A DNA stretch of 64,000 nt from Halomonas binhaiensis. Lineage in GTDB: Bacteria > Pseudomonadota > Gammaproteobacteria > Pseudomonadales > Halomonadaceae. The notes beneath the pieces are model-generated. The model saw only the letters and a list, made by a program, of their open reading frames with translations. It was not told the origin of the DNA and did not search any database. The stretch lies in NCBI RefSeq assembly GCF_008329985.2, contig NZ_CP038437.2, positions 2,170,001-2,234,000 on the forward strand. The letters run 5' to 3'. A program made the translations under genes and the position numbers. This document shows, piece by piece, positions 3,273 through 53,442 of the stretch (the first letter of the stretch is position 1; every line of letters begins with the position of its first letter).

Positions 3273-3319
3273 TTTTAGCAATCGATGTTTTAGCAATCGA
3301 GTATTTTAACAATCGAGTG
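3273..3319. repeat. Three imperfect 15-16 bp direct repeats upstream of metH
   Basis: Three head-to-tail copies of TTTTARCAATCGA plus 2-3 variable bases lie at 3273-3287, 3288-3303 and 3304-3319. They are about 145-190 bp upstream of the metH start codon. They could be a regulator-binding array, or the same kind of slippage duplication seen at many other places in this window. Confidence 0.75.
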
Positions 3320-3442
3320 TACCGGCGATCGAATGGCCCCATTAACTGAGACCAGGTGCGAAATTGCCTGGGGGCAGTAGCTTACCAAAAAAGCACGTTG
3401 TCAAAGTACAAAGTCATTCATGCTGTTCAGTGAAAGTATTCA

Positions 3443-3526
3443 TGATGGGTGATGGGTGATGGGTGATGGGTGATGGGTGATGGGTGATGGGTGATGGGTG
3501 ATGGGTGATGGGTGATGGGTGATGGG
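3443..3526. repeat. Perfect 12-copy TGATGGG heptamer array
   Basis: Exactly 84 bases, twelve uninterrupted copies of TGATGGG, between divergent metH and nfuA. Each unit has a GGG run spaced by TGAT, so the G-rich strand has the run pattern of a G-quadruplex, with 4-nt loops. Perfect heptamer arrays are prone to copy-number change by slipped-strand mispairing. The array ends about 200 bp before nfuA and begins about 315 bp before metH. Confidence 0.97.
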
Positions 3527-3728
3527 AAATATGCCGGGCGATGCTTCGGATGCTTGATGAGAATAATTCCGACTAAAACACTCGGGATTGTGTCTGATCA
3601 TAGTGTCGCTTACCATGGCACTATCTGCTCCTGACCTGGCCGGAGAAGTTTGATTGATGCCGGCCTGGCCAATGCTGCCATAGGAGCCGCGCGGCCTCTG
3701 CGCGCAGAGAATACATAGTGAGAGATCC

Positions 3729-4319
3729 ATGAGCGAAAACATCCAGATCACCGACAGTGCACAGGACTACCTCGCAGAGCTGCTTGAAAAGCAGAATGTG
3801 GAAGGAATTGCCGTGCGAATCTTCATTACCCAGCCAGGCACCCCGTATGCCGAGACCTGCCTGGCCTACTGTCGCCCCGGGGAAGAGGAGCCCAGTGATC
3901 AACTCCTGGAGCTTGCCAAGATCAATGTCTACCTCGATGCCAACAGTGTACCGTTTCTTGAGGACGCCGTGGTCGACTTCAATGCTGACCGCATGGGTGG
4001 GCAGCTGACCATCAAGGCGCCAAACGCCAAGATGCCCAAGGTCAATGCCGATAGTCCGCTGGAGGATCGCATCAACTATGTGCTCTACAGCGAGATCAAT
4101 CCCGGTCTTGCCGCTCACGGTGGTGAAATCAAGCTGGTTCAGCTGACCGAAGACCAGGTGGCAGTGCTGGCATTTGGTGGTGGTTGCCAGGGTTGTGCTG
4201 CCGTCGATCTTACCCTGAAGGAAGGGGTGGAAAAGACACTGATGGAGCGTATCCCTGAGCTGGCCGGTATTCGTGATGTGACTGACCATACGGATACCAC
4301 GAACGCTTATTACCGCTAA
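3729..4319 (+). CDS. nfuA: Fe-S biogenesis protein NfuA
   Basis: Iron-sulfur cluster carrier that delivers 4Fe-4S clusters to apo-proteins in the cytoplasm, important under oxidative stress or iron limitation. At 196 residues it has the usual length. The N-terminal half is a degenerate A-type carrier domain (ISC/HesB-like). The C-terminal Nfu domain carries the cluster-binding pair in [11 protein letters not shown] (Cys153 and Cys156). The start is ATG at 3729 with a purine-rich GAGAGA just upstream. It is monocistronic and followed by repeat copies of its own stop region and a GC-rich hairpin. SufE (29347) and Zur lie elsewhere in the window. Confidence 0.97.
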
Positions 4320-4356
4320 GGTCTGTTACTGCTGAGGTCTGCTACCACTGAGCCCT
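4310..4356 (+). repeat. Tandem duplication of the nfuA stop-codon region
   Basis: The last bases of nfuA (TTACCGCTAAGGTCTG, 4310-4325, stop TAA) are followed by TTACTGCTGAGGTCTG (4326-4341) and a decayed third copy (4342-4356). Each copy keeps a stop codon at the same offset (TAA, TGA, TGA). The 16-bp period puts them in different frames. This is one of a set of similar structures in the window. Confidence 0.85.
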
Positions 4357-4373
4357 ACAGCTGATCGGTTACG

Positions 4374-4393
4374 CGCCGCCCTTGTGGGCGGCG
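4374..4393. terminator. Hairpin between convergent nfuA and kfrA-like gene
   Basis: Perfect 8-bp arms CGCCGCCC and GGGCGGCG with loop TTGT, followed on the plus strand by TTGTTGTTG. It sits between two convergent genes, so it probably terminates both. The uridine tract is imperfect. Confidence 0.65.
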
Positions 4394-4413
4394 TTGTTGT
4401 TGCTGCTGCAAGA

Positions 4414-5442
4414 TCAACTGTCTGACGTTGTTGACGCTGTCGTATCGCTTTCCTTTTCGTTTCTGGCGGCTTCGCGCCGCTGGGCGGCGAGGGACCAGAT
4501 CTTTTCGTCGAGTTTTGCTTCCAGGGCATGGATGCGCTCCGCTTGCGTGGCAAGCTGGCGTTTCTGCTCCTCGATGCGTTCACTGAGCAGCTCATTTTCA
4601 TGCTGCCTGGCACGTGCATTATCCTCGGCTCTGGAACGCGCCAGAAGCGTTTCCTTGTGGTGCTTTTCTTCTTCCAGCAGGTCTGCGCGGACACGCTGCA
4701 ATTGCTGTTGTAGCGTTTCATAGCGCTGTTCAGCCTGTTGAAGCTTCTGGGCATGGGACTTTTCTGCTGCCTGCCGTTCCTGGCGTGCATCATCAAGCAT
4801 GCCCATCAGGCGGGCTTCGGCTGTCTCATGGCGCTGTTCTTCCTGGCGCAGGCGCTCGGTGTGTTCCGCCTGGAGCTCACCAAGGGCAACCTGGTGCGCC
4901 TGGGCCAGGCGCTCATTTTCCTGCTGCAGGCGTGCCAGCTGATCTTCCAACTGTGCAGAACGCTGGCGCTCTTTCTCTAGTTGCTGCTCCTGGGCCTGGA
5001 CGGTGGATTCCATGCGGGCCGAATTGGCGATGCTTTCCTGCAGGCGCTTTTCGGTAGTGACCAGGTGGGCCGAGAGAGCTGACTCGCGTTGCTCGGCATC
5101 TTCGGCCCTGCGGTCGGCGTCTGCCACTCGTTCCTGGGCTGCCGTGACCTGACGGTCGGCCTCTTCTCGGTAGTGAGAGAGGTTATCGGTTGCTGCCGTC
5201 TGGGCCTGGCTCCACAGCTCTTCCGCCAGTGCCTGCAGTTCGGCAGGCATGCCCTGGGGAGGAGGTACATCGGTGCGCTCCTCCCGACGAGTCCGCCATT
5301 CCCTCAGGTGTTCGCTGATCGTCGTGAAGCTACCGGTGCCAAGAATGTTGCGCACCTTCTGCACACTGGGCGCTTCCTGGCGCTGGAGCAGCGTATCGAT
5401 TGCACGCTGTACGTCGTCGAAAGTAATCCCTGTTCGAGCCAT
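4414..5442 (-). CDS. KfrA-like DNA-binding coiled-coil protein
   Basis: 342 residues. Residues 1-60 form the N-terminal DNA-binding region of the KfrA family (ITFDDVQRAIDTLLQRQEAPS then VRNILGTGSFTTISEHLREW), a helix-turn-helix. Residues 70-330 are almost uninterrupted heptad sequence rich in E, Q, R and A, predicting a long coiled coil. The tail is polar. KfrA was described on IncP plasmids as an autoregulated DNA-binding protein with an alpha-helical tail, and chromosomal homologues are common. No plasmid genes adjoin, so this is a chromosomal orphan whose role cannot be read from context. The start is ATG at 5442, preceded by AAGGTGA. Confidence 0.85.
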   Translation of the reverse strand: MARTGITFDDVQRAIDTLLQRQEAPSVQKVRNILGTGSFTTISEHLREWRTRREERTDVPPPQGMPAELQALAEELWSQAQTAATDNLSHYREEADRQVTAAQERVADADRRAEDAEQRESALSAHLVTTEKRLQESIANSARMESTVQAQEQQLEKERQRSAQLEDQLARLQQENERLAQAHQVALGELQAEHTERLRQEEQRHETAEARLMGMLDDARQERQAAEKSHAQKLQQAEQRYETLQQQLQRVRADLLEEEKHHKETLLARSRAEDNARARQHENELLSERIEEQKRQLATQAERIHALEAKLDEKIWSLAAQRREAARNEKESDTTASTTSDS

Positions 5443-5497
5443 GAGTCGTCACCTTGGGGCGTAACCTTGGAAGAGTGCTGTTCGTTCGCGTGAGTGC

Positions 5498-5529
5498 TTT
5501 CGAGCAAGCACTGTTCGAGCAAGCGTTAC
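5498..5529 (-). repeat. Tandem duplication at the 3' end of corA
   Basis: Two 16-bp units sharing TTCGAGCAAGC (5498-5513 and 5514-5529) overlap the corA stop codon and extend into the gap before the kfrA-like gene. This is the same architecture as at nfuA and zur, although here the copies do not repeat coding sequence. Confidence 0.7.
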
Positions 5530-6479
5530 AGCCAGCCTTTTCGCTTGAAATACCAGAAGGGTGCAATGCCGGATGCGACCATCAGGCCAAGCGCCCATGG
5601 GTATCCCAGCATCCACTTCAATTCGGGCATGACCTCAAAGTTCATGCCATAGATGCTGGCCACCAGAGTGGGTGGCAGAAAGACAACAGCGGCAATGGAG
5701 AACATCTTGATGATCTGGTTTTGCTCGATATTGATGAAACCTTGGGTCGAGTCCATCAGGAAGTTGATCTTATCGAATAGAAACGTGGTGTGTGACATCA
5801 GCGTTTCAATGTCGCGCATGATTTCGCGCAGCGTTTCCAGGTGTTCTGGCTGAGTGCGCATGTGGCGCAGCAGGAAGGAGATATTGCGCTGAGTATCCAT
5901 CAGGCACAGGCGAATCTTCCCGTTGCTGTCTTCCAGGCGTGCCAGCCTGTCAATGGCATCTTCCAGGCTGGCCTGCTCATCTTCCAGCACCAGATAGCTG
6001 ACTTCTTCAAGCTGCTGGTGCAGGTCTTCCAGCGTGTCAGCGTGATTTTCCACCTTCTGTTCGAACAGGGTGACCAATAATTCTTCGGGTGACTGGGCCT
6101 CGACCTGGCCTCGTCGGGCGCGCATGCGCAGCAGACGAAAGTCCGCCAGCTCGCTTTCGCGAATGGTGATCAGGCGCTGGCTTTGCAGAATGCAGGCAAC
6201 CGTTTCGGTGTGATGGCGATTCTCGGACTGGGTGAGAAACAGCGAGTGGATGTGCACGCCAGCCTGGTCGACGAAGCAGCGAGCAGAGGCCTCGATCTCT
6301 TCAATGTCATCTGATTCGGGAAGGTCGGTATGCAGCAGGCCTTGAAACAGTGAGCGTTCCTCATCATCAGGGTCGCGTGCATCAATCCAGTCCGCCTCCG
6401 CCAGAGCGCGCTCCGTTTGATCATCCGGGAGGCGACATTCCCGAATGGTTCCTTCCTGGATCTTGAATAGTCTCAGCAT
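5526..6479 (-). CDS. corA: CorA-family magnesium/cobalt channel
   Basis: Inner-membrane pentameric divalent-cation channel. The start is ATG at 6479 (MLRLFKIQEGTIRE), giving 317 residues, next to 316 in E. coli CorA, with GAGGT 7 bases upstream. An in-frame ATG further out would only add an unconserved 29-residue leader. A long acidic cytoplasmic domain (residues 1-250) precedes two C-terminal membrane segments, with the signature YGMNF at the first helix end and WMLGYPWALGLMVASG as the second. The C-terminus KRKGWL is basic, as expected inside the cell. It is followed by the divergently evolving repeat at its stop codon. Confidence 0.95.
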   Translation of the reverse strand: MLRLFKIQEGTIRECRLPDDQTERALAEADWIDARDPDDEERSLFQGLLHTDLPESDDIEEIEASARCFVDQAGVHIHSLFLTQSENRHHTETVACILQSQRLITIRESELADFRLLRMRARRGQVEAQSPEELLVTLFEQKVENHADTLEDLHQQLEEVSYLVLEDEQASLEDAIDRLARLEDSNGKIRLCLMDTQRNISFLLRHMRTQPEHLETLREIMRDIETLMSHTTFLFDKINFLMDSTQGFINIEQNQIIKMFSIAAVVFLPPTLVASIYGMNFEVMPELKWMLGYPWALGLMVASGIAPFWYFKRKGWL

Positions 6480-6814
6480 CGCGGTACCTCGATGTATAGG
6501 CGAATCCTGTGTCATCGCCGGGATGGCCTGTATGGCTCGGCTGTCTCCGGTATTCCTGGCCTGCATGTGCGCTGCGATTGTAGAGCAACACGGTATTGGC
6601 GAATAGGCCGCCGGGACGGGGCTGCGTATCAGCCGTCATTCACATTGCCATTTCTCAGTATTGTCTGGTGAGGGTTTGTCGTCACTGTTTGTCTTCGACA
6701 GGCCTTCGCTGATCAGTCTAGCGTATTTTTAGTGTAATTACATAATGCATAATAACGTAAATATATTTATTAAATATAATATAAAATCAAGATTACCCGT
6801 ATTATCTTGATTTT
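6480..6814. other. Intergenic region before the tyrosine recombinase, AT-rich at its right end
   Basis: The first 170 bases have ordinary composition and hold the corA promoter region. The stretch 6720-6816 is strikingly AT-rich against the GC-rich surroundings and ends in an inverted repeat (6781-6816). No gene is supported. The composition suggests a recombinase promoter or binding region, or a remnant of transferred DNA. Confidence 0.5.
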
Positions 6815-6816
6815 AT
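6781..6816. repeat. Inverted repeat with 13-bp perfect arms at the recombinase 5' end
   Basis: ATAAAATCAAGAT (6781-6793) and ATCTTGATTTTAT (6804-6816) are exact reverse complements around a 10-bp spacer, TACCCGTATT. This spacing of two inverted arms resembles a core site for a tyrosine recombinase, but it could also be an operator. It overlaps the first possible ATG of the recombinase frame, which makes that ATG a doubtful start. Confidence 0.85.
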
Positions 6817-8161
6817 GCTGCTACACTGGGCAAAAATGGATGGCAGGAGCACGTCTAAGCACCTGCGAAGGCAAGCAAAACCAGGCACGAAAGCTAGGCA
6901 CGAAAACCAGGCACGAAAAATAGACAAAAAACCGGCAAGCAAAAGCAGCGGAATGAAAAGAATGCGCCACCAAGGCAAAGGCAAAGGCAAAGGCAAAGAC
7001 ATAGACAAGGGGGCTGTTGGCCGCTCGAATACCGGCATCGTGCGGCATGACGCTGCGATTACAGAGCAGGGTGAGCTGGTGTCGGCTGCGATCCCGGCGA
7101 CCAGCGATGCCCAGGCCGTAAGTGCCTGGTTGAGAGAATATCGTGGCAGTCCCCAGACCCTGCGCACGTACCGGCGTGAAGCCGAGAGGCTGCTGTTGTG
7201 GGTGGCCGAGCAGGGCGTTGACTTGAGGTCCCTGCGCCGTCATCACCTCGATGATTTCGAAGCCTTCCTTTGTGATCCTCAGCCGCGCGAGCGCTGGGTG
7301 GGGCCCGTCAAATCCCGACAGTCGCCGGACTGGAAACCCTTTCGTGGCCCGTTGTCGGCATCCAGCCGACGCCAGAGTCTGGTAATCCTGCAGGGCATGA
7401 TGAGCTGGTTGATGGAAGCGGGGTGGATCACGCACAACCCCTTTCGCCTGATGCGCGATAAGCGTCGCCGTCTGGACAATCAGGCAGGGCGTGTCGAGCG
7501 CTATCTGGAGCGACCGCTATGGGGCTGGCTGTGGGCGTGGCTGTGTCGTCAGTTGCCCGATGCGGCCAGCCTGCGTGAACGCAAGCTGTGGACGCGTCGA
7601 CGCCTGGTGTTTGGTTTTGCCTATCTGATGGCGCCGCGTATCTCCGAAATGAGCCAGGCACGCATGAGCGACTTGTTCGTGCGTGAAGGCCGATGGTGGT
7701 GGCGAGTGGTCGGAAAGGGGGCCAAGACAGCGGAAATTCCTGTGCCGGAAGATATGATGCTGCTGATTCGGCAAATTCGTGTGGGTTATGGACTAGCGGA
7801 AAATCCGGGGCTGGATGATGGGCCCATCCTGCGCCGCCTGGATGACAAGAGCCCGCTGGGTGAGAATCAGCTGTATCGCCTGATTCGTACAACCTTTGCT
7901 CAGGCAGCCGATGTGCTGGAGCAAGAAGGGGGGGATGCCCTGGCTGTCATGCGGCTAAGGCAGGCAACCCCCCATTGGCTACGTCACACGGCCTTGACCC
8001 ACCAGGCCCAGGCCGGTGTCGAGCTACGCTACCTGGCGGCCACTGCCCGCCATGCCCGGCTTGATACCACCTCCCGTTACCTGCATACCGAAGACGAAGA
8101 GTGGCACCGCCAGCAATCCTGGCACCGACTGCCGGGGGCTGATGACAGAGAGCCGGACTGA
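6815..8161 (+). CDS. Solitary tyrosine recombinase / phage-integrase family protein
   Basis: 448 residues from the first ATG. A SAM-like core-binding domain (about 90-230) precedes a catalytic domain with the family residues: Arg in APRISEM, Lys in GKGAKTAEIPV, HWLRH, and the His/Tyr end HARLDTTSRYLH. The first 80 residues are low-complexity, basic, repeat-encoded sequence (RHENQARK, KGKGKGK). The first ATG lies in an inverted repeat, so translation may begin later, for example at 6953 (MKRMRHQG). There is no excisionase, phage gene or tRNA alongside. It could be a cryptic-element remnant or a host recombinase. It is not XerC or XerD by sequence. Confidence 0.85.
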   Translation: MLLHWAKMDGRSTSKHLRRQAKPGTKARHENQARKIDKKPASKSSGMKRMRHQGKGKGKGKDIDKGAVGRSNTGIVRHDAAITEQGELVSAAIPATSDAQAVSAWLREYRGSPQTLRTYRREAERLLLWVAEQGVDLRSLRRHHLDDFEAFLCDPQPRERWVGPVKSRQSPDWKPFRGPLSASSRRQSLVILQGMMSWLMEAGWITHNPFRLMRDKRRRLDNQAGRVERYLERPLWGWLWAWLCRQLPDAASLRERKLWTRRRLVFGFAYLMAPRISEMSQARMSDLFVREGRWWWRVVGKGAKTAEIPVPEDMMLLIRQIRVGYGLAENPGLDDGPILRRLDDKSPLGENQLYRLIRTTFAQAADVLEQEGGDALAVMRLRQATPHWLRHTALTHQAQAGVELRYLAATARHARLDTTSRYLHTEDEEWHRQQSWHRLPGADDREPD

Positions 8162-8192
8162 AGCCGGCTCCTGCAAGGCCCGAGCGGCCGTC

Positions 8193-8957: not shown

Positions 8958-8959
8958 GC

Positions 8960-9991: not shown

Positions 9992-10046
9992 AAGGGTTCC
10001 TTGTCCTTGTGTCTCACGGGGGTTGAGGGAGCAGTGGATAGCGATG

Positions 10047-14788: not shown

Positions 14789-14814
14789 TCAGTAGGCTTC
14801 TTTCAGTAGGCTTC
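14789..14814 (-). repeat. Exact duplication of the binding-protein gene's last 12 bases
   Basis: On the minus strand GAAGCCTACTGA, the final 12 bases of the binding-protein gene including its stop codon (14803-14814), is repeated exactly at 14789-14800 after a 2-base gap. The copy ends in its own TGA in another frame. Confidence 0.92.
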
Positions 14815-15771
14815 GTCGATATGATCGGCGGCATTGTCGGCGGTGAAGATGCGATCCTCCACACGCACCCAGGGCTCGACGGGTTCTCCGGCGGCATAGC
14901 GGTTGAGCACATCGCAGGCGACCGGGCCGAAGAAGGGCGAGGATTCGACAGACACCCCCATCTTGCCGTTGATGATGGCTCTCAGGGCATCACGGGTGCC
15001 GTCGATAGACACCACCAGAACGTCTTCGCCGGGCGTGCGTCCGGAAACTTCCAGTGCCTGGATAGCACCGATGGCCATCTCGTCGTTATGCGCATACACC
15101 ACATCGACGTTGGGGTGGGCCTGGAGCAGCGTCTCCATTACCTGGCGCCCGGTATCCCGCGAGAAGTCGCCGGACTGGGAGGCGATGATGGTCATGTTGT
15201 CCTGTTCGGCGATGACCTCATCGAACCCCTGCTTGCGATCATTGGCCGGGGAAGAGCCGGTAGTGCCTTCCAGTTCAATGATTCTGGCTTCGTCGCCTTC
15301 GAAGTTGTCCACCAGCCACTGCGCCGCCGTCTGCCCTTGCTCCACGAAGTCCGAGCCAAGGAAGGCCACATAGTGCTCACCGGCCTTGGCTACGGCAGGA
15401 TCGACCTGGCGGTCGACGAGAAATACGGGAATGCCAGCGGCCCGTGCCTTCATCACGGCAGGAATCAGAGCGCGTTCTTCCCGTGGGGGCAGGAAGATGG
15501 CATCCATGCCCTGGGCGATCATGCTGTCGACATCGGCAACCTGTTTGGCTGCGGACCCCGCGGCGTCGGTCACGGTCAATTTCCAGTTGCACTGCTCAGC
15601 GACGTCTCGGAAGGACTGGGTTTCCGCAATGCGCCAGGGGTTGTTGCTCTCCATCTGGGCGAACCCCACGCGGTAGCTGTCCTTCTGCTCCAATGGCGGT
15701 AATTGCTGGGAAGCCGCCAGGCCACTGGTACACATCAGTACGGCGCCCATCATGAGTTTGAAGGTTTTCAT
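14803..15771 (-). CDS. Periplasmic sugar-binding protein, YtfQ-like
   Basis: 322 residues with a Sec signal peptide (MKTFKLMMGAVLMCTSGLAAS) and a type-1 periplasmic-binding fold. Family features are VGFAQMESNNPWRIAETQS near the N-terminus, VFLVDRQVD and VVSIDGTRDAL. YtfQ of E. coli (galactofuranose) begins its mature part in the same way. AGAGGT precedes ATG 15771. Its importer genes follow on the same strand. The ligand is probably a furanose or related sugar, by family resemblance and layout only. Confidence 0.88.
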   Translation of the reverse strand: MKTFKLMMGAVLMCTSGLAASQQLPPLEQKDSYRVGFAQMESNNPWRIAETQSFRDVAEQCNWKLTVTDAAGSAAKQVADVDSMIAQGMDAIFLPPREERALIPAVMKARAAGIPVFLVDRQVDPAVAKAGEHYVAFLGSDFVEQGQTAAQWLVDNFEGDEARIIELEGTTGSSPANDRKQGFDEVIAEQDNMTIIASQSGDFSRDTGRQVMETLLQAHPNVDVVYAHNDEMAIGAIQALEVSGRTPGEDVLVVSIDGTRDALRAIINGKMGVSVESSPFFGPVACDVLNRYAAGEPVEPWVRVEDRIFTADNAADHIDEAY

Positions 15772-29346: not shown

Positions 29347-29775
29347 ATGACCAGCATTACCACTGCAGAACAAGCTCAGCAGGAACTGCTCGAAGAGTTC
29401 CAACTGTTCGACAACTGGATGGACCGCTATCAGTACATCATTGATATGGGCAAGGCATTGCCGTCCTTTCCTGACGACTGGAAACTGGATGAACTGAAAA
29501 TTCAGGGGTGCCAGTCGAATGTCTGGATGCGCCACGAGCGTCGTGGTGATGCTCTGCACTTCGATGCCATCTCTGATGCTGCCATCGTATCTGGGCTCAT
29601 CGCGGTACTGATGCGTATCTACAATGACCGCATGCCGTCGGATATTGTCGCTACCAGCCCCCACTTCCTCAAGGACCTGGGACTGGACAAGCATCTCTCG
29701 CCTACGCGCAGCAATGGCCTCAACAGCATGCTGGAGCGCATCTATCAGGTCGCCCATCAGGAAGCAGCGGCATAA
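29347..29775 (+). CDS. sufE: SufE-family cysteine desulfurase activator
   Basis: 142 residues. SufE accepts persulfide sulfur from a cysteine desulfurase for Fe-S assembly. The acceptor cysteine is in IQGCQSNVWM, and the family features LDNWMDRYQYIIDMGK-like N-terminus and FLKDLGLDKHLSPTRSNGL are present. No suf operon adjoins, so this is a solitary copy (it could be CsdE in function). GGAGG precedes ATG 29347. Three 14-16 bp repeats follow its stop codon. Confidence 0.93.
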   Translation: MTSITTAEQAQQELLEEFQLFDNWMDRYQYIIDMGKALPSFPDDWKLDELKIQGCQSNVWMRHERRGDALHFDAISDAAIVSGLIAVLMRIYNDRMPSDIVATSPHFLKDLGLDKHLSPTRSNGLNSMLERIYQVAHQEAAA

Positions 29776-29819
29776 CCTGAAATAGATGACCTGAATATAG
29801 ATGGCCCGAATATAGATAG
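29775..29819 (+). repeat. Three tandem 14-16 bp repeats after the sufE stop
   Basis: ACCTGAAATAGATG (29775-29788), ACCTGAATATAGATG (29789-29803) and GCCCGAATATAGATAG (29804-29819), starting at the last base of the stop codon. Confidence 0.85.
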
Positions 29820-30430: not shown

Positions 30431-30844
30431 TTATCCTTGGGATTGAGAGCTTCTGCCGGATTGGAAGCTTCTGTCGGATTGCTGATGTGGTACAGGAGTG
30501 GCCGAGGGAGCAATGGGACGAAACTGTGCATCTAGCTCCGGGTCTTCCTGACACATGGTCTCGCTCGGCCCGCCGGGCACCGGGTCTATACCACTGCCTC
30601 CGCCAGGGCGGCAGCGCATGATGCGCTTGAAGGTCAGCCAGCCACCCTTGAGTGGCCCATGCACCTGGATGGCCTCCTTGCCGTAATGAGAACAGCTTGG
30701 CCAGTAGCGGCAACGAGGTCCGAGAATGGGGCTGAGCAATAGCTGATAGGCTTTGATCAACACCACGGCAGGCAGGGCGAGACAGCGCCGCAGCAGGGAG
30801 GCCTGCGCGCCGGAAGCGGCATCTTTTCTTTTCTCGTTGCACAT
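30431..30844 (-). CDS. yidD: YidD-family membrane protein insertion efficiency factor
   Basis: 137 residues. The YidD core (about 20-85) is clear: [40 protein letters not shown] then RCRPGG, with an N-terminal amphipathic stretch for membrane attachment. YidD normally sits between rnpA and yidC near the origin. Here it is alone near the terminus. Normal YidD is 70-90 residues. The extra C-terminus is polar, low-complexity sequence ending in 18-bp repeats ([16 protein letters not shown]). Confidence 0.92.
30440..30481 (-). repeat. In-frame 18-bp repeats in the yidD C-terminus
   Basis: CAATCC begins three units spaced exactly 18 bp (30476-30481, 30458-30463 and 30440-30445 on the minus strand). 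They encode [12 protein letters not shown] and QSQG followed by the stop. The repeat period is a multiple of 3, so the frame is kept. Confidence 0.88.
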
Positions 30845-30973
30845 GGTGTTGTCCTCGCTGGCTTCAGGCCCTGATAAGCCCGAGTTGCCAGTCAGTTCCT
30901 GGGCGCTTGTTGCTCGGAAGCTTCACCCTCGAAAACCAGCCCCTTGAAAACGGTGGTCTTGAATGTCTGGTTC

Positions 30974-31048
30974 TTTGAGACCTGGCTCCTTGAAACCTGG
31001 CTCCTTGAAACCTAGCTCTTTGAAACTTGGCTCTTTGAAACCTGGCTC
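30974..31048. repeat. Five-unit 15-bp minisatellite covering the hisI 3' end
   Basis: Units of the form CTTGAAACCTGGCTC at 30974-30988, 30989-31003, 31004-31018, 31019-31033 and 31034-31048, with decayed units further left to about 30930. On the hisI strand each unit reads GAGCCAGGTTTCAAA, five codons long. The unit at 31004-31018 carries CAG to TAG, which creates the hisI stop. Confidence 0.93.
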
Positions 31049-31485
31049 TTGGTAGAATAGAGCGTATCAGGATCAATCAGCGGCGAGCTGGTAATGCGAG
31101 CCTGATTCCCCTCCAGGCCGACATAGAAGCAGCTCTTGCGTCCAGTGTGGCAAGCAGGGCCTGTTTGATCGACCTGCAGCAACAGGGTATCCCCATCACA
31201 GTCCAGGGCGGCGCTCTTCAAATGCTGCTGCTGCCCTGAGGATTCCCCTTTTCGCCACAGCTTCTGGCGCGAACGTGAATAGTAGCAGACACGGCCAGTA
31301 TTCAAGGTTTCTTCCAGCGCCTCGCGATTCATCCAGGCCATCATCAGTATTTCTCCGCTGTCATGCTGCTGAGCAATGGCGGGCAATAGCCCATCACCAT
31401 TGAAGCGGATGGCATCCAGAACTTCACTAATGGGGAGGAGAGTGTCGGGGGCGGCGCGTTCAAGACGCTTGAATGTGTCACTCAT
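31012..31485 (-). CDS. hisI: Phosphoribosyl-AMP cyclohydrolase HisI
   Basis: Opens the adenine ring of phosphoribosyl-AMP, step 3 of histidine synthesis. 157 residues. Motifs are MMAWMNREALEETL, GRVCYYSRSRQKLWRKGESSG and the zinc cysteines in ALDCDGD and GPACHTGRKSCFY. The C-terminus KSQVSKSQVSKS is encoded by 15-bp repeats rather than by conserved family sequence, so array changes would alter the tail length. It stands apart from other his genes. hisE is not fused and not adjacent. Confidence 0.94.
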   Translation of the reverse strand: MSDTFKRLERAAPDTLLPISEVLDAIRFNGDGLLPAIAQQHDSGEILMMAWMNREALEETLNTGRVCYYSRSRQKLWRKGESSGQQQHLKSAALDCDGDTLLLQVDQTGPACHTGRKSCFYVGLEGNQARITSSPLIDPDTLYSTKSQVSKSQVSKS

Positions 31486-31543
31486 GACTAGGGTCCAGTA
31501 AAAAGGGGCTTTTTATGTCGCTAACGCAGAGGGCTTTTTTTAT

Positions 31544-31598
31544 CGCTGAAGGCTCTTTCTAGCGCTGAAGGCTCTTTGTCGCTAACGCTGAAGGCTCT
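31544..31598 (-). repeat. Three copies of the zur 3' end, each with a stop codon
   Basis: On the minus strand the 13-mer AGAGCCTTCAGCG occurs at 31586-31598 (the end of zur), 31563-31575 and 31544-31556. It is followed by TTAG, CTAG and ATAA respectively. All three therefore read Ser-Leu-Gln-Arg-stop, with CGT, CGC or CGA for Arg. A more decayed copy lies near 31525. Spacings of 23 and 19 bp are out of frame. Confidence 0.92.
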
Positions 31599-43788: not shown

Positions 43789-43834
43789 CGACAGCTCTTC
43801 GTAACGACTGCTCTGTATAACGACTGCTCTGGGC
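43789..43834 (+). repeat. Three 14-16 bp repeats just after the gntR stop
   Basis: CGACAGCTCTTCGTAA (43789-43804), CGACTGCTCTGTATAA (43805-43820) and CGACTGCTCTGGGC (43821-43834), beginning one base after the stop codon. The first two end in TAA. Confidence 0.85.
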
Positions 43835-43850
43835 AAGGCATGCACGCACC

Positions 43851-43884
43851 ATAAAAGGCCGAGGTTACTGCCTCGGCCTTTTAT
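43851..43884. terminator. Strong bidirectional terminator between gntR and fabF
   Basis: ATAAAAGGCCGAGG and CCTCGGCCTTTTAT are exact 14-bp arms around TTACTG. The A/T ends give a U tract in both directions, a classic intrinsic terminator for two convergent genes. Confidence 0.95.
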
Positions 43885-43912
43885 GGTGTTATTTCAACAT
43901 GGTGTTATTTCT
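43883..43912 (-). repeat. 14-bp duplication after the fabF-like gene
   Basis: ATGGTGTTATTTCA (43883-43896) and ATGGTGTTATTTCT (43899-43912) differ at one base. They overlap the right end of the terminator and lie 25 bases beyond the fabF stop. Confidence 0.8.
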
Positions 43913-43936
43913 TCATGCTTCGCATCCGCCCTGGCG

Positions 43937-46585: not shown

Positions 46586-47164
46586 ATGATAGAGATATGG
46601 AAGGATAACTTGGAAGAACAGCTTCTCATGTGGCTGAAGGCGGATGCCCAGAGGCTCGCGGCTCTTGAACGGGCAAGTGAGCTCGGGCTCCAGGACTGGT
46701 GCCTGGCGGCCGGGTTTGTGCGTAACCTGGTGTGGGACAGGTTGCACGAATATGCGCAGTCGACACCGCTCGACGACATCGATTTAGTCTATTTTGATCC
46801 CCAGGACTCAAGCCCTGAGCGTGATTGGATTCTGGAAACCAGGCTGCGTGAAGTCTCGGACTTGCCATGGTCGGTCAAGAACCAGGCCAGAATGCACGTC
46901 AGAAATGCTGACGCCCCATACGTATCCACTGCCGATGCCATGAGTTATTGGGTCGAAATGGAAACGGCCATTGGGGTACGCCTGGTGAGTGACGGACGGG
47001 AGCTTGAGTTGGTTGCGCCATTGGGTCTGGAGGCCTTGTTTGCTGGTAGCGTGACTCTGAACTGGAAACGACCGAAACCAGATGCCTTCAAGGCCCGCAT
47101 TGAAACGAAGGGCTGGCTGGAGAAATGGCCTCGGCTGGTCATTGTCTCGAGCCTGGACGGCTAG
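46586..47164 (+). CDS. Nucleotidyltransferase-family protein (COG3575-like)
   Basis: 192 residues from ATG 46586 (MIEIWKDNLEEQLL). Nucleotidyltransferase-like features are WCLAAGFVRNLVWDRLH, then the acidic pair in LDDIDLVYFD, plus WSVKNQARMHVRNADAPY and APLGLEALFAG. It belongs to a bacterial family of unknown substrate, often stand-alone. The gene begins 26 bases after the GFA remnant. Two 13-bp repeats start at its stop codon. Confidence 0.85.
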   Translation: MIEIWKDNLEEQLLMWLKADAQRLAALERASELGLQDWCLAAGFVRNLVWDRLHEYAQSTPLDDIDLVYFDPQDSSPERDWILETRLREVSDLPWSVKNQARMHVRNADAPYVSTADAMSYWVEMETAIGVRLVSDGRELELVAPLGLEALFAGSVTLNWKRPKPDAFKARIETKGWLEKWPRLVIVSSLDG

Positions 47165-47189
47165 GTGATGCCAAACGGTGATACCAAAC
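47164..47189 (+). repeat. 13-bp tandem repeat at the nucleotidyltransferase stop
   Basis: GGTGATGCCAAAC and GGTGATACCAAAC are adjacent and differ at one base. The first begins with the last base of the TAG stop. Confidence 0.85.
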
Positions 47190-47299: not shown

Positions 47300-47812
47300 A
47301 TGTCTGTCCCCGATCGCGCGAGGGCGCTATTGGTAATATCTATCCTGGCCTGTCATGCGGGGGTGGCAATCTCTCAGGAAAGCACGCCAGAGCAGCAGGC
47401 GGAGGCCTCTGCAGGACAAAGGAAAGTGCTGGCTGTCGGTATGCATAACAGTGGCAAGGCTCTGGCGGAAGTCAGTGCTGCCATTCGGGATGGTACGCAA
47501 GTAACGATCAAGGTGCGTTTCCGGCCAGTAGGTAACGGGTTGGAGGAACCGATCGAGCTTTACGACAATCTGACAGAGCGTGCGTATCAGACGGATTTCT
47601 ACCTGCTGGCGGGCAATCGGAAATATCTGTTGTTGAAAGATACCGAAGACCGTCCCCTGGCACCGTCGACTGCGACCATCAATGCCGGTGATGCCATGTA
47701 CGCTGGCTCCTGGTATGGCGTTTTTCCTGCTCCTCCGGTTGACGAAAACGTCATGCTGTTCCTGCAGGATGTGGAACCGCTGGGTCCCTTCCTGATTCCT
47801 GCACAAGACTGA
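47300..47812 (+). CDS. Exported protein of unknown function
   Basis: 170 residues from ATG 47300, with AAGGAG 8 bases upstream. A signal-like N-terminus (ARALLVISILACHAGVAISQ) is followed by a beta-rich domain (KVLAVGMHNSGKALAEVSAAI, TIKVRFRPVGNGL, YQTDFYLLAGNRKYLLLKD, SWYGVFPAPP). I do not recognise the family. It sits directly before an OmpA-like gene in the same direction, with six bases from its stop to the first ATG, so the two may work together at the envelope. Confidence 0.75.
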   Translation: MSVPDRARALLVISILACHAGVAISQESTPEQQAEASAGQRKVLAVGMHNSGKALAEVSAAIRDGTQVTIKVRFRPVGNGLEEPIELYDNLTERAYQTDFYLLAGNRKYLLLKDTEDRPLAPSTATINAGDAMYAGSWYGVFPAPPVDENVMLFLQDVEPLGPFLIPAQD

Positions 47813-47818
47813 TTGCCC

Positions 47819-48514: not shown

Positions 48515-48539
48515 CAAGGCTCGAGAGGAAGCACGTAAC

Positions 48540-48842
48540 GTGTATAGCTACCTGATTGAGTTCAATGTAAAGGAAGGAGAGGAGGCGGCTTTCGTGGAGC
48601 ATTGGAGCCGTCTCACAGAGTATATACACCAGGAATTCGACGGGCTTGGTTCAAGGCTGCACAAGACGGCTGATGGCCAATATATTGCCTATGCTCAATG
48701 GCCCGATGGCGATTCCAGGGACGCAGAACACGCCTGGACCACAGAAGGCAGGGAGCTGCAGAACAAGATGAGAAATACGCTGCTGAATAGTCGTGTGCTT
48801 TATAAGTTTGCAGTGGTGAAGGATCTTCTGAAAGATCCATGA
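48540..48842 (+). CDS. Antibiotic-biosynthesis-monooxygenase (ABM) fold protein
   Basis: 100 residues starting at GTG 48540 (MYSYLIEFNVKEG), with GAGGAAG upstream. Dimeric alpha/beta-barrel type: YLIEFNVKEGEEAAFVEHWSRLTE then DGQYIAYAQWPDGDS. Family members include small monooxygenases and non-catalytic proteins, so no reaction can be assigned. Its stop overlaps the next possible start by ATGA. Confidence 0.75.
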   Translation: MYSYLIEFNVKEGEEAAFVEHWSRLTEYIHQEFDGLGSRLHKTADGQYIAYAQWPDGDSRDAEHAWTTEGRELQNKMRNTLLNSRVLYKFAVVKDLLKDP

Positions 48843-48883
48843 AGCAAGTAAAACACGTTGTCTTGTACGGGGTATCCTGTGCG

Positions 48884-49231
48884 ATGAGTGTCTCACACGA
48901 ATTGCTCGACTTTCTGCTTGATCAACTTGCTCCCCTGGGCAACGTCTCTGCTCGACGTATGTTCGGAAGCATGGGCGTGTTTCTCGATGGGCGCATGTTT
49001 GGCATTCTCAGCAGAGAAAATCGCTTTTACATCAAGACTGATGCGAACAATCTCGAGAAATTCGTGGAACAAGGGTGCGAACCATTCAGTTATTGGGTCT
49101 CGCAGCCTTCCGGGGAACGCAAGCAAAAACGGCTGTCGTATTACGAAGTGCCCGATTCAGCCCTGGAGGATCAGGATGAACTGATGTTCTGGGCAAGACT
49201 CGGGGTTTCAGCATCAATGCCTTCAGGTTGA
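48884..49231 (+). CDS. TfoX N-terminal domain protein
   Basis: 115 residues from ATG 48884 (MSVSHELLDFLLDQL). An in-frame ATG at 48839 that overlaps the previous stop is an alternative (130 residues). The TfoX/Sxy N-terminal domain is shown by VSARRMFGSMGVFLDGRMFGILSRENRFYIKTD and PFSYW then KRLSYYEVPDSALED. The C-terminal TfoX domain of full-length Sxy is missing, so it is the single-domain type of unknown role rather than the competence regulator. Confidence 0.85.
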   Translation: MSVSHELLDFLLDQLAPLGNVSARRMFGSMGVFLDGRMFGILSRENRFYIKTDANNLEKFVEQGCEPFSYWVSQPSGERKQKRLSYYEVPDSALEDQDELMFWARLGVSASMPSG

Positions 49232-49234
49232 TTC

Positions 49235-49963
49235 ATGTCCCAGAATATCTACGATGACCCGGTATTCTTCGATGGATATGCCCAGCTTCCGCGCTCTCAG
49301 TTCGGTTTGGACGGAGCGCCCGAGTGGGCTTCCATTCACGCTATGCTGCCAGAGCTTCGCGGCAAGAATGTCATTGATCTTGGTTGTGGCTATGGTTGGT
49401 TCTGTCGCAGTGCTCGCCAAGCGGGAGCCGCTGACGTGCTCGGTGTCGACTTGTCTGAAAAAATGCTGGCGCGGGCGCGCGAACTGACGGACGATCCTGG
49501 CATTCGCTATCAGCGAGAAGACCTTGAGCAACTGACACTGCCAGAGCAGGCATTCGACCTGGCCTACAGTGCATTGGCACTGCATTACCTGCCGGATCTC
49601 AAACCTTTCCTGGCGACCATCCATCAGGCCCTGAAACCGGGCGGTTGGATGGTCTTCACCACTGAGCACCCGATCTATACCTGTGCGAAGAGCAAGGAGT
49701 GGGTGATCGATGCTGAAGGCCAGCGCTCATGGCCGGTCAATAACTACCAGAACGAAGGCCCGCGAGTCAGCAACTGGCTGGCAGATGGCGTCATCAAGTA
49801 CCACCGGACTCTGGGCACCACTCTGAATGCACTGATTGCTGCAGGCTTTGAGCTGCGCCACGTCGAGGAGTGGGGGCCGAGCGCAGAACAGGTCGCAGCA
49901 GTTCCTGACTTGGCGGAAGAAGCCGAACGTCCGATGATGGTCCTGATCGCGGCGCAGCGATGA
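49235..49963 (+). CDS. Class I SAM-dependent methyltransferase
   Basis: 242 residues. SAM-binding motif I KNVIDLGCGYGWFCRSA, motif II region VLGVDLSEKMLARARE, DLEQLTLPEQAFDLAYSALALHYL and the post-motif HQALKPGGWMVFTTEHPIY. It resembles the UbiE/Tam-like group, and the substrate is not evident. It starts 3 bases after the TfoX-like stop, so it is translationally linked to it. Confidence 0.9.
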   Translation: MSQNIYDDPVFFDGYAQLPRSQFGLDGAPEWASIHAMLPELRGKNVIDLGCGYGWFCRSARQAGAADVLGVDLSEKMLARARELTDDPGIRYQREDLEQLTLPEQAFDLAYSALALHYLPDLKPFLATIHQALKPGGWMVFTTEHPIYTCAKSKEWVIDAEGQRSWPVNNYQNEGPRVSNWLADGVIKYHRTLGTTLNALIAAGFELRHVEEWGPSAEQVAAVPDLAEEAERPMMVLIAAQR

Positions 49964-50004
49964 AGGTTTCTGGTATGTATTTCTGACTAGGGCACCATGT
50001 TGGA

Positions 50005-52143
50005 TTAATGGGCTTTATCAACTAACGCTAGAAAACTATCCGGCTCAAGAATCTGTGGAAGCACCTCGGGCTCGCTTTCTCCTGGTGCATACCACAGGTA
50101 GAGCGGCACTCCAGAGCGGCCATGTTCTTGCAGGAAAGCGGTGATAGCAGGGTCGCCGTTGGTCCAGTCTCCCTTCATGGTGACCACACCCGCCTGTTCC
50201 AAAGCCTGCTGCGTTGTGGAAGTGTTGATTACCCGCTGTTCGTTTATCTGGCAAGTGATGCACCAGTCTGCGGAAAAGTAGACAAAGACCGTCTTTTCCT
50301 GCTGTTGAAGTTCAGCCAGCCGCTTTTTATCGAAGGGGAGCATCGTTGCTTCCGAAGCGTTTGCTACCCCGTTGGTGACGGGGTCTTCACGCCCAGGAAA
50401 GGAGTGGGGAACCACAATGCTGCCTGCCAACGCGAGCACGACAGCCAGTCCTGCTGGCAGCCAAGCCAGCCGCTTGCCATTGCGTTGGCGCATACCGGTA
50501 AACCAAAGCCCAACCGCCAGCAACATGATCAGAGAAAAGCTCGCTATCAAGCCGTCGTTGCTGAGCTGTCGGCCCAGCACCCAGGCCAGGGCCAGGGCCG
50601 TCAGAAACATGGGGATAGCCATGAGATGTCGGAAGCTTTCCATCCACGGGCCAGGGCGGGGCAGCCAGCGGCTAAGCGCGGGTATGAAACCCAGCAGCAG
50701 AAACGGCAGGGCGATGCCCAGCCCCAGGCCGGCAAAGACAGCCAGCGCGGCAAACGGAGGTAATACCAGCGCTGCGCCGAGAGCCGTGGCCATGAAAGGG
50801 CCAGAGCAGGGCGTCGCCACAAAGGCGGCAAGCACACCGGTCCAGAAAGCACCCGCCATGCCTCCCTGATCAGCCAATCTTGCGCCTTTGCTGATGGAGC
50901 CCAGTTCGAATAATCCGGCCAGATTGAAGCCGATAGCAGCGGTCAACAGGGCAAGCACCACGATAACTCGTGGATCCTGCAGTTGGAACGCCCAACCTAT
51001 CTGAGTACCGGCAGCACGCAGTGCGAGGATAACCGCGCCCAGCATGAGGCAAACGATCACGACGCCTGCGGTGTAGGCCAGTGCTTCACGCCGAGCTTCG
51101 CGTTTACCACCGGACAGGCGCGCCAGGCTAAGCACCTTGAGACTGAGGATCGGGAACACGCAGGGCATGATATTAAGAAGAACACCGCCCAGCAGAGCAC
51201 CGAGCAATGCCGTCAGCAGCAGGGTAGTGGTGTTGCCCTGCTCAGCTGGCATGCCAGCTTCCGGCAAATTCCGGGGGCTATCGTCGCCCGGCGCTGGTGC
51301 ATTCTCATTGTGGCCACGCAATGCCAGGCCGGTGCCGTTGCCCAATGACAGCAGTGCCTCCAACTCAGCAGGCGGGCCAGATGTCTGCCGAGACTTGTCC
51401 AGCAGCATCTCGACGGTCAGCACATCTCCTTCGCGGCTGAAAACCTGTTCTGCTGCGGGGTCGATTATCTTGTCGGTGGCGACAAACAAGTGCGGATTGT
51501 CCAGCTCTACACTGGCGGGGAGGGGGATGCTCAGGCGCAGTCGAGCATCATCCGTCACAGTGAAGCTGGCCGATGAACCCAGCGGTCTCGGAAGCTCTTG
51601 CCGCCATTCGTCGAAACGCGCCTTGCGCTCCGACGGGACCTCGCCATTTCCAGCAACCAGCGTAATAGCCAGCGACGCTTCTTCAGGGACGCAAGCATCC
51701 GCTCGGCAGGCAAGGTATTTGATATCAGCAGTGATGGGAAGCGAGGTTCCCTGCGCTACCGAGTCGTCTATTTCAAAAGGCACCAGTAGCGCATAAGGGT
51801 GCTCGTAGACATGATTCATCAGATCGCCAGTCATCAGCGTCTGCGGTACCGGATAGGCTGGTTCGCCAACACTGACGCCTTCCGGCAACTGCCAATCGAA
51901 CTGCGGTGGCAAGCCAATGTTGCCCGGCTGTTTCCAATATCCGTGCCAGCCTGATTGCGGTTCCATGAGCACGGCCAAGGTACTTGATGTACCTGGTGCG
52001 GGCCGGTCTGTTTCCGCGATTAGCGAGTTCTTGATCAGCACCTCGTCAGAGGCACCGGGCATTCCCTGGGCGGCGGCTGTCTGCAGGAACAACGCGGAAG
52101 ACAGGCAGCAGAGAAGCAGGCAGCGGAACAGGAATGTCGTCAT
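50005..52143 (-). CDS. DsbD-family thiol:disulfide transport protein (ScsB-like)
   Basis: 712 residues from ATG 52143, with a signal peptide (FLFRCLLLCCLSSALFLQTAAAQG). The periplasmic alpha domain has YLACRADACVPEE. The membrane domain has the redox cysteines in NIMPCVFPILSLK and ATPCSGPFMATALG. The C-terminal thioredoxin-like domain has SADWCITCQINE. It carries electrons from cytoplasmic thioredoxin across the membrane to periplasmic partners. The N-terminal domain is of the longer ScsB type rather than classical DsbD. A hairpin and 91 bases separate it from the upstream TlpA-like gene. Confidence 0.92.
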   Translation of the reverse strand: MTTFLFRCLLLCCLSSALFLQTAAAQGMPGASDEVLIKNSLIAETDRPAPGTSSTLAVLMEPQSGWHGYWKQPGNIGLPPQFDWQLPEGVSVGEPAYPVPQTLMTGDLMNHVYEHPYALLVPFEIDDSVAQGTSLPITADIKYLACRADACVPEEASLAITLVAGNGEVPSERKARFDEWRQELPRPLGSSASFTVTDDARLRLSIPLPASVELDNPHLFVATDKIIDPAAEQVFSREGDVLTVEMLLDKSRQTSGPPAELEALLSLGNGTGLALRGHNENAPAPGDDSPRNLPEAGMPAEQGNTTTLLLTALLGALLGGVLLNIMPCVFPILSLKVLSLARLSGGKREARREALAYTAGVVIVCLMLGAVILALRAAGTQIGWAFQLQDPRVIVVLALLTAAIGFNLAGLFELGSISKGARLADQGGMAGAFWTGVLAAFVATPCSGPFMATALGAALVLPPFAALAVFAGLGLGIALPFLLLGFIPALSRWLPRPGPWMESFRHLMAIPMFLTALALAWVLGRQLSNDGLIASFSLIMLLAVGLWFTGMRQRNGKRLAWLPAGLAVVLALAGSIVVPHSFPGREDPVTNGVANASEATMLPFDKKRLAELQQQEKTVFVYFSADWCITCQINEQRVINTSTTQQALEQAGVVTMKGDWTNGDPAITAFLQEHGRSGVPLYLWYAPGESEPEVLPQILEPDSFLALVDKAH

Positions 52144-52186
52144 TGGCTCCAACCCCCGCGCGGCGGGCTATTTCATCAGAAGATAA

Positions 52187-52206
52187 CCGCTCCGTCTCCG
52201 GAGCGG
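52187..52206. other. Intercistronic hairpin in the thiol-redox operon
   Basis: CCGCTCC and GGAGCGG arms around GTCTCC, between the two minus-strand redox genes. The minus strand continues TTATCTT, so weak termination or attenuation is possible. Confidence 0.5.
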
Positions 52207-52234
52207 AAAAGAGGATAGAAGAGAAGGGGGCTGC

Positions 52235-53335
52235 CTATTGGCTGAGACGCTCCACCGCCTCGGTCAGTTTGGTGTCTTGCGGTCCAAGCTTCTCTGTTAT
52301 CTGCCCGTCAGCACTGATCAGCACGACAGAAGGTATCTGTCGAATGTCGAAGGCTCGATGTAGCTCACCCTCGGCATCGAGCACCACGGGAATATCCGTC
52401 TCGGTGCTGGCAAGATAGCTTTCGACATCGGATTCCTTGGTCCACAGGCCAGACATGATACCTACCCACTGTACCTCTTCGTCTTCGCTCAGTTGATTGA
52501 CGGTTTCGCGTACACGACGGCAGGCAGTGGCGGTTTCCGGCTTGCTCTCCGCAAGATAGGACTCACACCAGGTGGCAAAGAACACCACACCCAGTGGCTT
52601 GTCTGAATCTGCTCGAGATAGATCAATGGTACTGCCGTCCCACGTGGTGACAGAGAGATCCTTGACCGTTTGGCCCACCTTCAGCGTATCGGCGCCCGTG
52701 TCTGTGACTTCCTCTTCCTCGGAGGCAGCGGATTGCTTGCCATCTTCCTCGAGTACTGCCTGCAGCGCCTGCTCCAGTTCCTGATCATCTCGATGACCGA
52801 TGTAGGCGATATGACCACTGCGATCAATCAGCACGTGCTGTGGGGTCACGCGCAGGTTCAGGGCTTCGCCTAGCGTGCCATCATCCACCGTGATCGGCAT
52901 GGTCAATCCCATTTCTTCGCGATAGGCTCTCGCCGCCTCGGCAGTATCGGCGTAACCCGTGTTCACGGCGATGACTTGAATATCATCGCCGTGCTCCTCT
53001 TGGAACTTCTGGAAGCCAGGCATCTGCTGGCGACACGGTACACACCAGGTCGCCCAGAATTTTATGTAGACCGGTTTATTGCCGTACAGACTGGCGAGAT
53101 CAATGGTTTCACCGTCCAGAGTGGTCAAACTCATCTCCGGACCGGGTTGGCCGATCAGCGATTCGCCTGCCGCCTTGGCACGCTGCTCGCCGTCGGCATC
53201 CATATCATAGGCCTCATCCTGATCGGCTTGGTCCTGCTCAACGCTGTCCTGATCGGCAGCCTGGATTGGGCCAATGTGGCCGAGCAATAGGGCGAACAGT
53301 ATGGCAACTGAAAGCCAGGATTTTTTGGTCTGCAT
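52235..53335 (-). CDS. Exported double-thioredoxin (TlpA-like) protein
   Basis: 366 residues from ATG 53335 (MQTKKSWLSVAILFALLLG). ATG 53344 is nearly as good. The signal peptide is followed by an acidic linker. Domain 1 (about 55-195) is a TlpA-like thioredoxin with KFWATWCVPCRQQMPGF. Domain 2 (about 215-365) has FFATWCESYLAESKPETATAC: the CxxC is replaced by one Cys in WCESYL and a second 14 residues on. Operon with the ScsB-like transporter, which probably re-reduces it. Its targets may be oxidised envelope proteins. Confidence 0.88.
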   Translation of the reverse strand: MQTKKSWLSVAILFALLLGHIGPIQAADQDSVEQDQADQDEAYDMDADGEQRAKAAGESLIGQPGPEMSLTTLDGETIDLASLYGNKPVYIKFWATWCVPCRQQMPGFQKFQEEHGDDIQVIAVNTGYADTAEAARAYREEMGLTMPITVDDGTLGEALNLRVTPQHVLIDRSGHIAYIGHRDDQELEQALQAVLEEDGKQSAASEEEEVTDTGADTLKVGQTVKDLSVTTWDGSTIDLSRADSDKPLGVVFFATWCESYLAESKPETATACRRVRETVNQLSEDEEVQWVGIMSGLWTKESDVESYLASTETDIPVVLDAEGELHRAFDIRQIPSVVLISADGQITEKLGPQDTKLTEAVERLSQ

Positions 53336-53418
53336 CAATCTCATCCTGTTGGACGGTGGAGTGGCAGTACAACGGGCCAAATACGGACCATATGCGGGCC
53401 ATATACAACAGGCCAATA

Positions 53419-53442
53419 AAGTAGCCGTATAAGTAGCCGTAT
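53419..53442. repeat. Exact 12-bp tandem duplication, ScsC/MocR spacer
   Basis: AAGTAGCCGTAT occurs twice in succession (53419-53430 and 53431-53442). Related GGCCATAT/GGACCATAT fragments lie just to the left. The spacer is upstream of both genes. Confidence 0.9.

Follow-up and report, generated by a model that had tools for sequence, protein, structure and literature searches.

Why do short tandem duplications recur at the ends of genes in the 64,000-nucleotide stretch of the Halomonas binhaiensis chromosome analyzed here (the window; G000:C1:2170001-2234000, from a one-contig genome of 4.895 Mb)? A preliminary description named 12 sites of imperfect duplication, most of them at or just after stop codons, and proposed either a recurrent process such as slippage or a function in 3'-end processing or termination. 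We find that the arrays are real and abundant, but that their association with stop codons is for the most part a side effect of constraint. In our assessment, with a probability of about 0.75, the arrays of the window are explained by short tandem duplication (slippage) that acts genome-wide and is filtered by selection.

Abundance and distribution of tandem arrays

Arrays in the window were detected using Tandem Repeats Finder (TRF) at a score of at least 30, which returned 28 rows. Genome-wide statistics come from a sample of 61 stretches of the same genome (1.264 Mb), with 1029 called genes, about 1.06 Mb of coding DNA by our own gene calls and 178,553 bp of spacer. The spacers, searched alone at a score of at least 45, contained 124 arrays, compared with 2, 2, 1, 0, and 0 in five dinucleotide shuffles. 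In coding DNA, 78 arrays were found versus 14, 15, and 14 in codon shuffles. The coding arrays have passed a frame filter: 75 of 83 have periods divisible by three, as against 44 of 149 spacer arrays.

The codon shuffles, the spacer periods, and the comparisons reported below with the related genome G038, between units, of base composition, and of pooled relatives were obtained with an earlier gene caller (1001 genes; reading frames running off the ends of stretches were ignored). On one 50-kb stretch of Escherichia coli, this caller recovered 41 of 48 annotated coding-sequence stops with zero extra calls; the main statistics were redone, and the earlier values were close. Because the earlier caller misses yidD in the window, some of the arrays counted in spacers really lie in unrecognized genes.

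The arrays are unevenly distributed. Their density per kb is highest in convergent spacers (1.09), followed by co-directional (0.76) and divergent (0.68) spacers, and is 0.08 in coding DNA. Within co-directional spacers, arrays occupy a steady 4.7–5.9% of bases over the 150 bp past stop codons and 4.2–6.7% at 20–150 bp upstream of start codons; the values fall to 1.3% in the final 20 bp ahead of starts and, at distances above 250 bp, to about 2%. Arrays are thus scarcest in coding DNA and just upstream of start codons.

Our preferred explanation has two parts. Short tandem duplication, with units mostly of 12–19 bp and probably made by replication slippage, would be frequent, and commoner in our genome and in some others of Halomonas than elsewhere in the genus; in these genomes a raised rate appears a better account than weakened selection. 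New arrays would then survive where they do little harm, that is, in spacers, and least over start codons and ribosome sites. Survival would be lower in divergent spacers with promoters and in the deep parts of long spacers, and within genes it would be almost limited to multiples of three, as selection would purge duplications that disrupt a frame, a start, or a promoter. Gene 3' ends would be permissive, since the original stop stays in place when the duplicated segment spans the stop codon, and arrays would often lie just past gene ends because survival follows low harm.

Copy number in relatives and density across genomes

Around zur, we kept 80 loci from Halomonas, Vreelandella, and related genera. 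The Zur protein of one of them, from Halomonas sp. MAG bin15 (locus L053, genome G038), a metagenome-assembled genome (MAG), is 99% identical to that of the window, and the window is, insertions aside, collinear over its first 55.6 kb with a single G038 contig at 92.9% identity. Another entry, G052, is probably the same genome, as its match coordinates are identical.

Copy number is lineage-specific. Among 24 spacer arrays that could be anchored in G038, the segment is longer in our genome in 17, equal in 6, and shorter in 1; in the reverse view, 11 arrays anchored in G038 are longer there in 3 cases, equal in 4, and shorter in 4. Over the shared synteny, 26 spacer arrays are present here and 12 in G038. 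The difference is close to a multiple of the unit in 12 of the 18 arrays that differ in length, and a crude indel-by-indel scoring classified 12 of 202 indels as tandem versus 0.9 expected. Most arrays have therefore expanded recently. The recurrent slippage-like process of the preliminary description is supported by these differences.

Genomes also differ in array density. Our genome has 0.69 spacer arrays per kb, G043 0.58, and G038 0.55, whereas single arrays were found in H. beimenensis (0.07 per kb; 14.1 kb of spacer), in an H. socia record (0.05; 20.2 kb), in CP022737 (0.05; 18.3 kb), and in 38.7 kb of E. coli K-12 spacer. The zur-region loci of relatives, pooled, gave 47 arrays in 188 kb of spacer (75 of 80 loci), or 0.25 per kb. 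The array-rich genomes may form a clade.

One could suppose that selection is relaxed in the array-rich genomes and that looser spacers accumulate ordinary duplications with no rise in the mutation rate. The coding share of the sample given above could accommodate this, as could the base composition of the arrays, which are richer in A+T than the surrounding spacers (G+C 0.445 versus 0.504). However, coding DNA shows no parallel rise in array density (0.073 per kb in our genome versus 0.184 in H. beimenensis), and longer spacers alone would not raise our figures because the counts are per kb of spacer. We regard relaxed selection as an unlikely explanation.

The units themselves are mostly unrelated. 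Among 21,528 pairs of 11–30-bp units, 28 scored at least 10, compared with 18, 12, and 15 pairs in random segments, a result that rules out common descent of all units. Units starting with ACAGCCCTGA were seen at three places (L027:3881-3947, L015:8095-8145, and L054:3916-3946), one of them in a different species.

Arrays in the window

Nine of the 12 sites named in the preliminary description were recovered by TRF (3271, 4311, 29775, 30440, 30967, 31521, 43789, 47164, and 53419, the last together with 53372). The other three, at corA (5498), the YtfQ-like gene (14789), and fabF (43883), fall under the TRF score and are unlisted by it but are visible as direct repeats of 11–13 bp spaced 14–17 bp apart. 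The features are as follows, with segment lengths compared with G038.

3128-3152 (approximate start), minus strand: metH (Pfam)
3271..3320, no strand assigned: 16-bp array (TRF), 3.2 copies, in the divergent metH/nfuA spacer; copies ordered differently in G038, segment 99 versus 97 bp
3443..3526, plus strand: TGATGGG heptamer (TRF), 12 exact copies, away from stops, missing from the preliminary list; 91 bp longer than in G038, which has about one copy
4311..4352, plus strand: 16-bp array (TRF) over the nfuA stop, with TAA, TGA, and TGA at one offset; 32 bp longer than in G038; a strong hairpin follows downstream at 4365-4405
5495..5526, minus strand: 11-bp direct repeat with a 15-bp period, directly 3' of the corA stop (visible, not TRF); same net length in G038
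6877..6919, plus strand: 13-bp array (TRF) of 3.3 copies, located away from stops in a divergent spacer, missing from the preliminary list; no anchor in G038
14789..14816, minus strand: two copies with a 14-bp period at the stop of the YtfQ-like gene (visible, not TRF); identical in G038
29775..29817, plus strand: 15-bp array (TRF), 2.9 copies, immediately 3' of sufE; 23 bp longer than in G038, which has about one copy
30440..30481, minus strand: 18-bp array (TRF), in frame, in the final codons of yidD; 25 bp longer than in G038, which has fewer copies
30967..31050, minus strand: 15-bp array (TRF), 5.6 copies, over the hisI 3' end; 148 bp longer than in G038
31521..31598, minus strand: 19-bp array (TRF), 3.9 copies, over the zur stop, of the GCTGANGGCTCTT core family, with the core on the plus strand; 43 bp longer than in G038, which has fewer copies
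43789..43831, plus strand: 16-bp array (TRF) 3' of gntR, upstream of a hairpin at 43845-43890; 32 bp longer than in G038, the fabF repeat included
43883..43920, minus strand: 13-bp direct repeat with a 17-bp period, 3' of fabF (visible, not TRF); a 32-bp stretch here is missing from G038
47164..47189, plus strand: 13-bp duplication (TRF) at the nucleotidyltransferase stop; equal length in G038
53372..53442, no strand assigned: adjoining 11-bp and 12-bp arrays (TRF) in a divergent spacer, clear of any stop; 19–20 bp longer than in G038

The gene names agree with Pfam matches for nfuA, corA, the YtfQ-like gene (Peripla_BP_4), sufE, yidD, hisI, zur (Fur family), gntR, fabF (ketoacyl synthase), the nucleotidyltransferase gene, metH, and the MocR-type gene (GntR-aminotransferase); the ScsC-like gene matches redoxin and thioredoxin families. 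The stop triplets reported at one offset in the copies at nfuA, zur, and the YtfQ-like gene are indeed there, and the offset is constant because the duplicated segment itself contains the stop. The yidD and hisI arrays enter the reading frame and give the protein a longer tail, with HisI ending in SQVSKSQVSKS. The 12 TGATGGG copies at 3443-3526 contain G tracts, and a quadruplex is possible there by sequence.

Association with stop codons

The preliminary description linked the arrays to stop codons, terminators, or 3'-end processing. Of the arrays, 140 have their midpoint in a spacer. A stop codon is found no more than 20 bp away for 47 of these, versus 35.4 expected under uniform placement in the same spacers (P = 0.004), and no more than 60 bp away for 68, versus 57.4 (P = 0.004). 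These unmasked nulls alone had suggested a stop-specific process. When each array was redealt within its own spacer with the start codon and the 15 bp upstream of it barred, the expected numbers were 42.9 (P = 0.18) and 65.1 (P = 0.27), and neither excess was significant. Under the same masked null, the counts within 20 bp were 14 versus 12.6 in G043 and 14 versus 15.5 in G038, again not significant, and there was no significant excess within 60 bp in either genome. Masked placement in the three genomes thus rules out a stop-specific process as the main cause, and the proposed link is unsupported. A similar array density elsewhere in intergenic DNA, which the preliminary description had itself put forward as an argument against its proposal, is largely what we observe, apart from a small residual at the stop codon in this genome only.

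That residual and several other observations weigh against general duplication filtered by selection as a full account. Arrays that touch or overlap a stop codon number 34, compared with 26.5 under the masked null (P = 0.03). The excess holds for periods above 8 bp (32 versus 23.3, P = 0.005), so that dropping periods of 7–8 bp does not remove it, and it is seen outside the window (27 versus 20.8, P = 0.05). In co-directional spacers, 20 arrays overlap the stop and 2 the start, and in those of at most 150 bp, 17 arrays are closer to the stop and 9 to the start. Distributing the arrays among all spacers in proportion to length would place 24.1 within 20 bp of stops and 38.1 within 60 bp; since the first figure compares with 47 observed, spacers are not uniform, and the deep parts of long ones are poor in arrays. 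Neighboring copies diverge by 14–18% in arrays of at least four copies, so the copies are either not fresh or the product of an error-prone process. Unrelated loci share the core GCTGANGGCTCTT or the heptamer CTACGAG, neither of which is predicted by plain slippage. Finally, the genome used for comparison, G038, is a MAG.

The stop-overlap excess has no counterpart under the masked null in G043 (7 versus 7.8) or G038 (10 versus 9.8), and in co-directional spacers above 150 bp, 29 arrays are closer to the stop and 24 to the start. Tolerated duplications that begin in the last codons could account for the overlap with no special mechanism. Within arrays of at least four copies, inner neighbors diverge by 0.143 (n = 40) and edge copies by 0.182 (n = 42), and this slightly greater similarity of inner copies fits growth from within. 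A striking link to stop codons can arise from selection that filters a general mutation process.

RNA structure and a possible 3'-end function

A different possibility is that the arrays are functional 3'-end elements, acting in termination, RNA processing, or protection of mRNA ends, and are kept behind stops by selection. The nfuA and gntR arrays lie between the stop and a terminator-like hairpin, and the hairpins downstream of them are strong (z = −4.3 and −11.2, respectively). When 11 array RNAs were folded, four folded better than nearly all shuffles (hisI, z = −2.8; nucleotidyltransferase, −2.4; TGATGGG, −7.6; CTACGAG, −3.0), whereas for each of the other seven, 23 or more of 200 shuffles folded at least as well. 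The stop-touching residual, the bias in short co-directional spacers, and the CTACGAG arrays, 16 of 26 of which start 0–20 bp past a sense stop, also fit such a function. Opposed to it are the lack of a significant excess within 20 or 60 bp of stops once starts are masked, the mostly unrelated units, the ordinary folding of seven RNAs, the copy number, which is not kept in a relative at 93% identity, and the near balance in long co-directional spacers. We consider a 3'-end function very unlikely as an explanation of the arrays at large.

Terminators or structured RNA are likewise unsupported as an identity for most arrays: 7 of 11 fold within the range of shuffles, and a terminator scan between 29 and 48 kb of the window found no terminator-like site on any array, although the scan also missed the gntR hairpin and is therefore not very sensitive. 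For palindromic units of the repetitive extragenic palindromic (REP) type, as judged by RNA folding, the same 7 of 11 RNAs show no unusual structure and the other four do. Rfam yielded no family at threshold in 1900-3800. By sequence, neither CTACGAG nor GCTGANGGCTCTT has a G tract of three in each unit; TGATGGG does.

A core shared by unrelated loci

A minority of arrays, at unrelated loci that include the zur array (31521-31598), have in common a 13-bp core, GCTGANGGCTCTT. Further examples are found at G000:C1 558519, 734219, 1245071, 3386373, 3571388, and 3980914. Exact GCTGARGGCTCTT occurs 25 times in our genome (reversed control, 0) and 18 times in G038. Of 145 genomes of the order, 28 (from 24 of 91 genera) had tandem pairs of GCTGANGGCTCTT; in a class-wide sample, the figure was 8 of 274 genomes (6 of 222 genera). 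Our genome is included in both counts, and the reversed control gave 0 in both. The cores of the 30 loci retrieved, which represent 28 distinct arrays, are found both in spacers and within coding DNA, there in either reading. The stretch between cores is locus-specific and yet is repeated within the locus.

The data do not support GCTGANGGCTCTT as a single-copy motif scattered through the genome in the manner of DNA uptake or Chi-like sites. With one mismatch allowed, its 13 single copies fall within the shuffled controls (mean 6.6, maximum 16), whereas nine tandem occurrences compare with 0.

These features raise the possibility that part of the arrays are seeded in a sequence-specific manner, GCTGANGGCTCTT (and CTACGAG) being duplication-prone or tiny mobile cores that spread and were then amplified with locus-specific flanks. 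The tandem pairs in many genera, the flanks that differ among loci and repeat within them, the occurrence in spacers and in both readings of coding DNA, the tandem excess, and the CTACGAG 35-mers described below (85 versus 0 reversed) would all be accommodated. On the other hand, seeding accounts for a minority of arrays only, and no enzyme or mobile element was identified. In coding loci, the substitutions within the cores look codon-like, and selection for the repeat peptide could explain some of them. The reversed 13-mer had one match each in 4 of 38 genomes, whereas the true 13-mer matched in 16 of the 38, and the core was chosen post hoc, with no other array units as controls. We rate seeding as possible, at less than even odds, for the part of the arrays that it concerns.

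A stronger form of this proposal, in which GCTGANGGCTCTT would be a duplication signal conserved in the order and acting at the DNA level, with core-bearing arrays of locus-specific spacers repeatedly arising in intergenic and genic DNA of at least two dozen genera, and CTACGAG would be laid on the leading strand behind stops, is tentative and in our judgment rather unlikely. Minisatellites with shared cores occur in animals, and bacteria would have a counterpart to them if GCTGANGGCTCTT were such a signal.

In G193, a 3.6-Mb genome of the order, we observed 82 tandem pairs of a GCTGANGGCTCT core, the most among the genomes compared. At L009:16119-16385, a 25-bp unit in 10.7 near-identical copies, 51 bp past a stop, contains GCCTTCAGC, which is part of the core.

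The heptamer CTACGAG

The preliminary description did not include a second recurrent unit, CTACGAG, which does sit just behind stop codons. We found 26 arrays of it in our genome, from G000:C1 594718 to 4755671, a number to be read as at least 26, as our count may lack arrays of 3–4 units in the region 4.2545–4.685 Mb. The 35-mer of the heptamer had 85 matches versus 0 for the reversed sequence. At least three exact copies were present in 20 of 61 genomes of the genus, our own included. None of the TRF arrays of the window is a CTACGAG array.

Sixteen of the 26 arrays begin 0–20 bp past a sense stop (15 if a gene call that conflicts with one of them, L291, is followed) and two past an antisense stop, whereas the spacer DNA no more than 20 bp from a stop of any kind totals only about 15.2 of 179 kb. 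Leading-strand arrays number 23 of 26 (P = 9e-5) when GC skew is used to place the origin near 4.70 Mb and the terminus near 2.24 Mb, a bias hypothesized from the same data that tested it. In G043, 10 of 14 arrays are on the leading strand (P = 0.18), and 5 of 14 lie behind a sense stop versus 2 antisense.

Comparison with known repeat systems

The preliminary statement that no feature of this form has been described was too strong. Bacterial minisatellites, or variable-number tandem repeats (VNTRs), are the right general kind: they consist of head-to-tail units of about 10–60 bp, are mostly intergenic, and vary in copy number among relatives. Likewise, the arrays studied here have head-to-tail units of about 7–60 bp in numbers above chance, and their copy number differs between close relatives. 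They differ in being unusually dense and in that two units recur at many unrelated loci.

Other systems share single traits. GGGNATC heptamers of Xanthomonas and Nostoc lie within 50 bp of stops (PMC4692102). CTACGAG resembles them as a dispersed identical heptamer, on the sense strand and close behind stops, but lacks G tracts and also has a leading-strand bias, whereas the arrays of the window mostly have longer units of unrelated sequence. The cyanobacterial small dispersed and heptamer repeats, as mentioned in PMC2884548 and PMC4692102, are very small units that are dispersed through the genome, tandem, and possibly mobile; in our arrays, a core of 12–13 bp is shared and the remainder of the unit is locus-specific. 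The small variable segments of PMC2884548 are a further point of comparison. Borg tandem repeats are A-enriched and are carried by archaeal elements (PMC9879509), in contrast to a bacterial chromosome with no strong A bias. The TAACTGA repeats of Beggiatoaceae are also dispersed heptamer direct repeats of patchy taxonomic spread, mostly just upstream of starts according to PMC4679880. In a literature search, GCTGANGGCTCTT and CTACGAG units were undescribed in bacteria among the matches listed.

Comparing array-rich with array-poor Halomonas genomes offers a way to study how bacterial minisatellites are born, and the recurrent core and the heptamer are the parts worth following.

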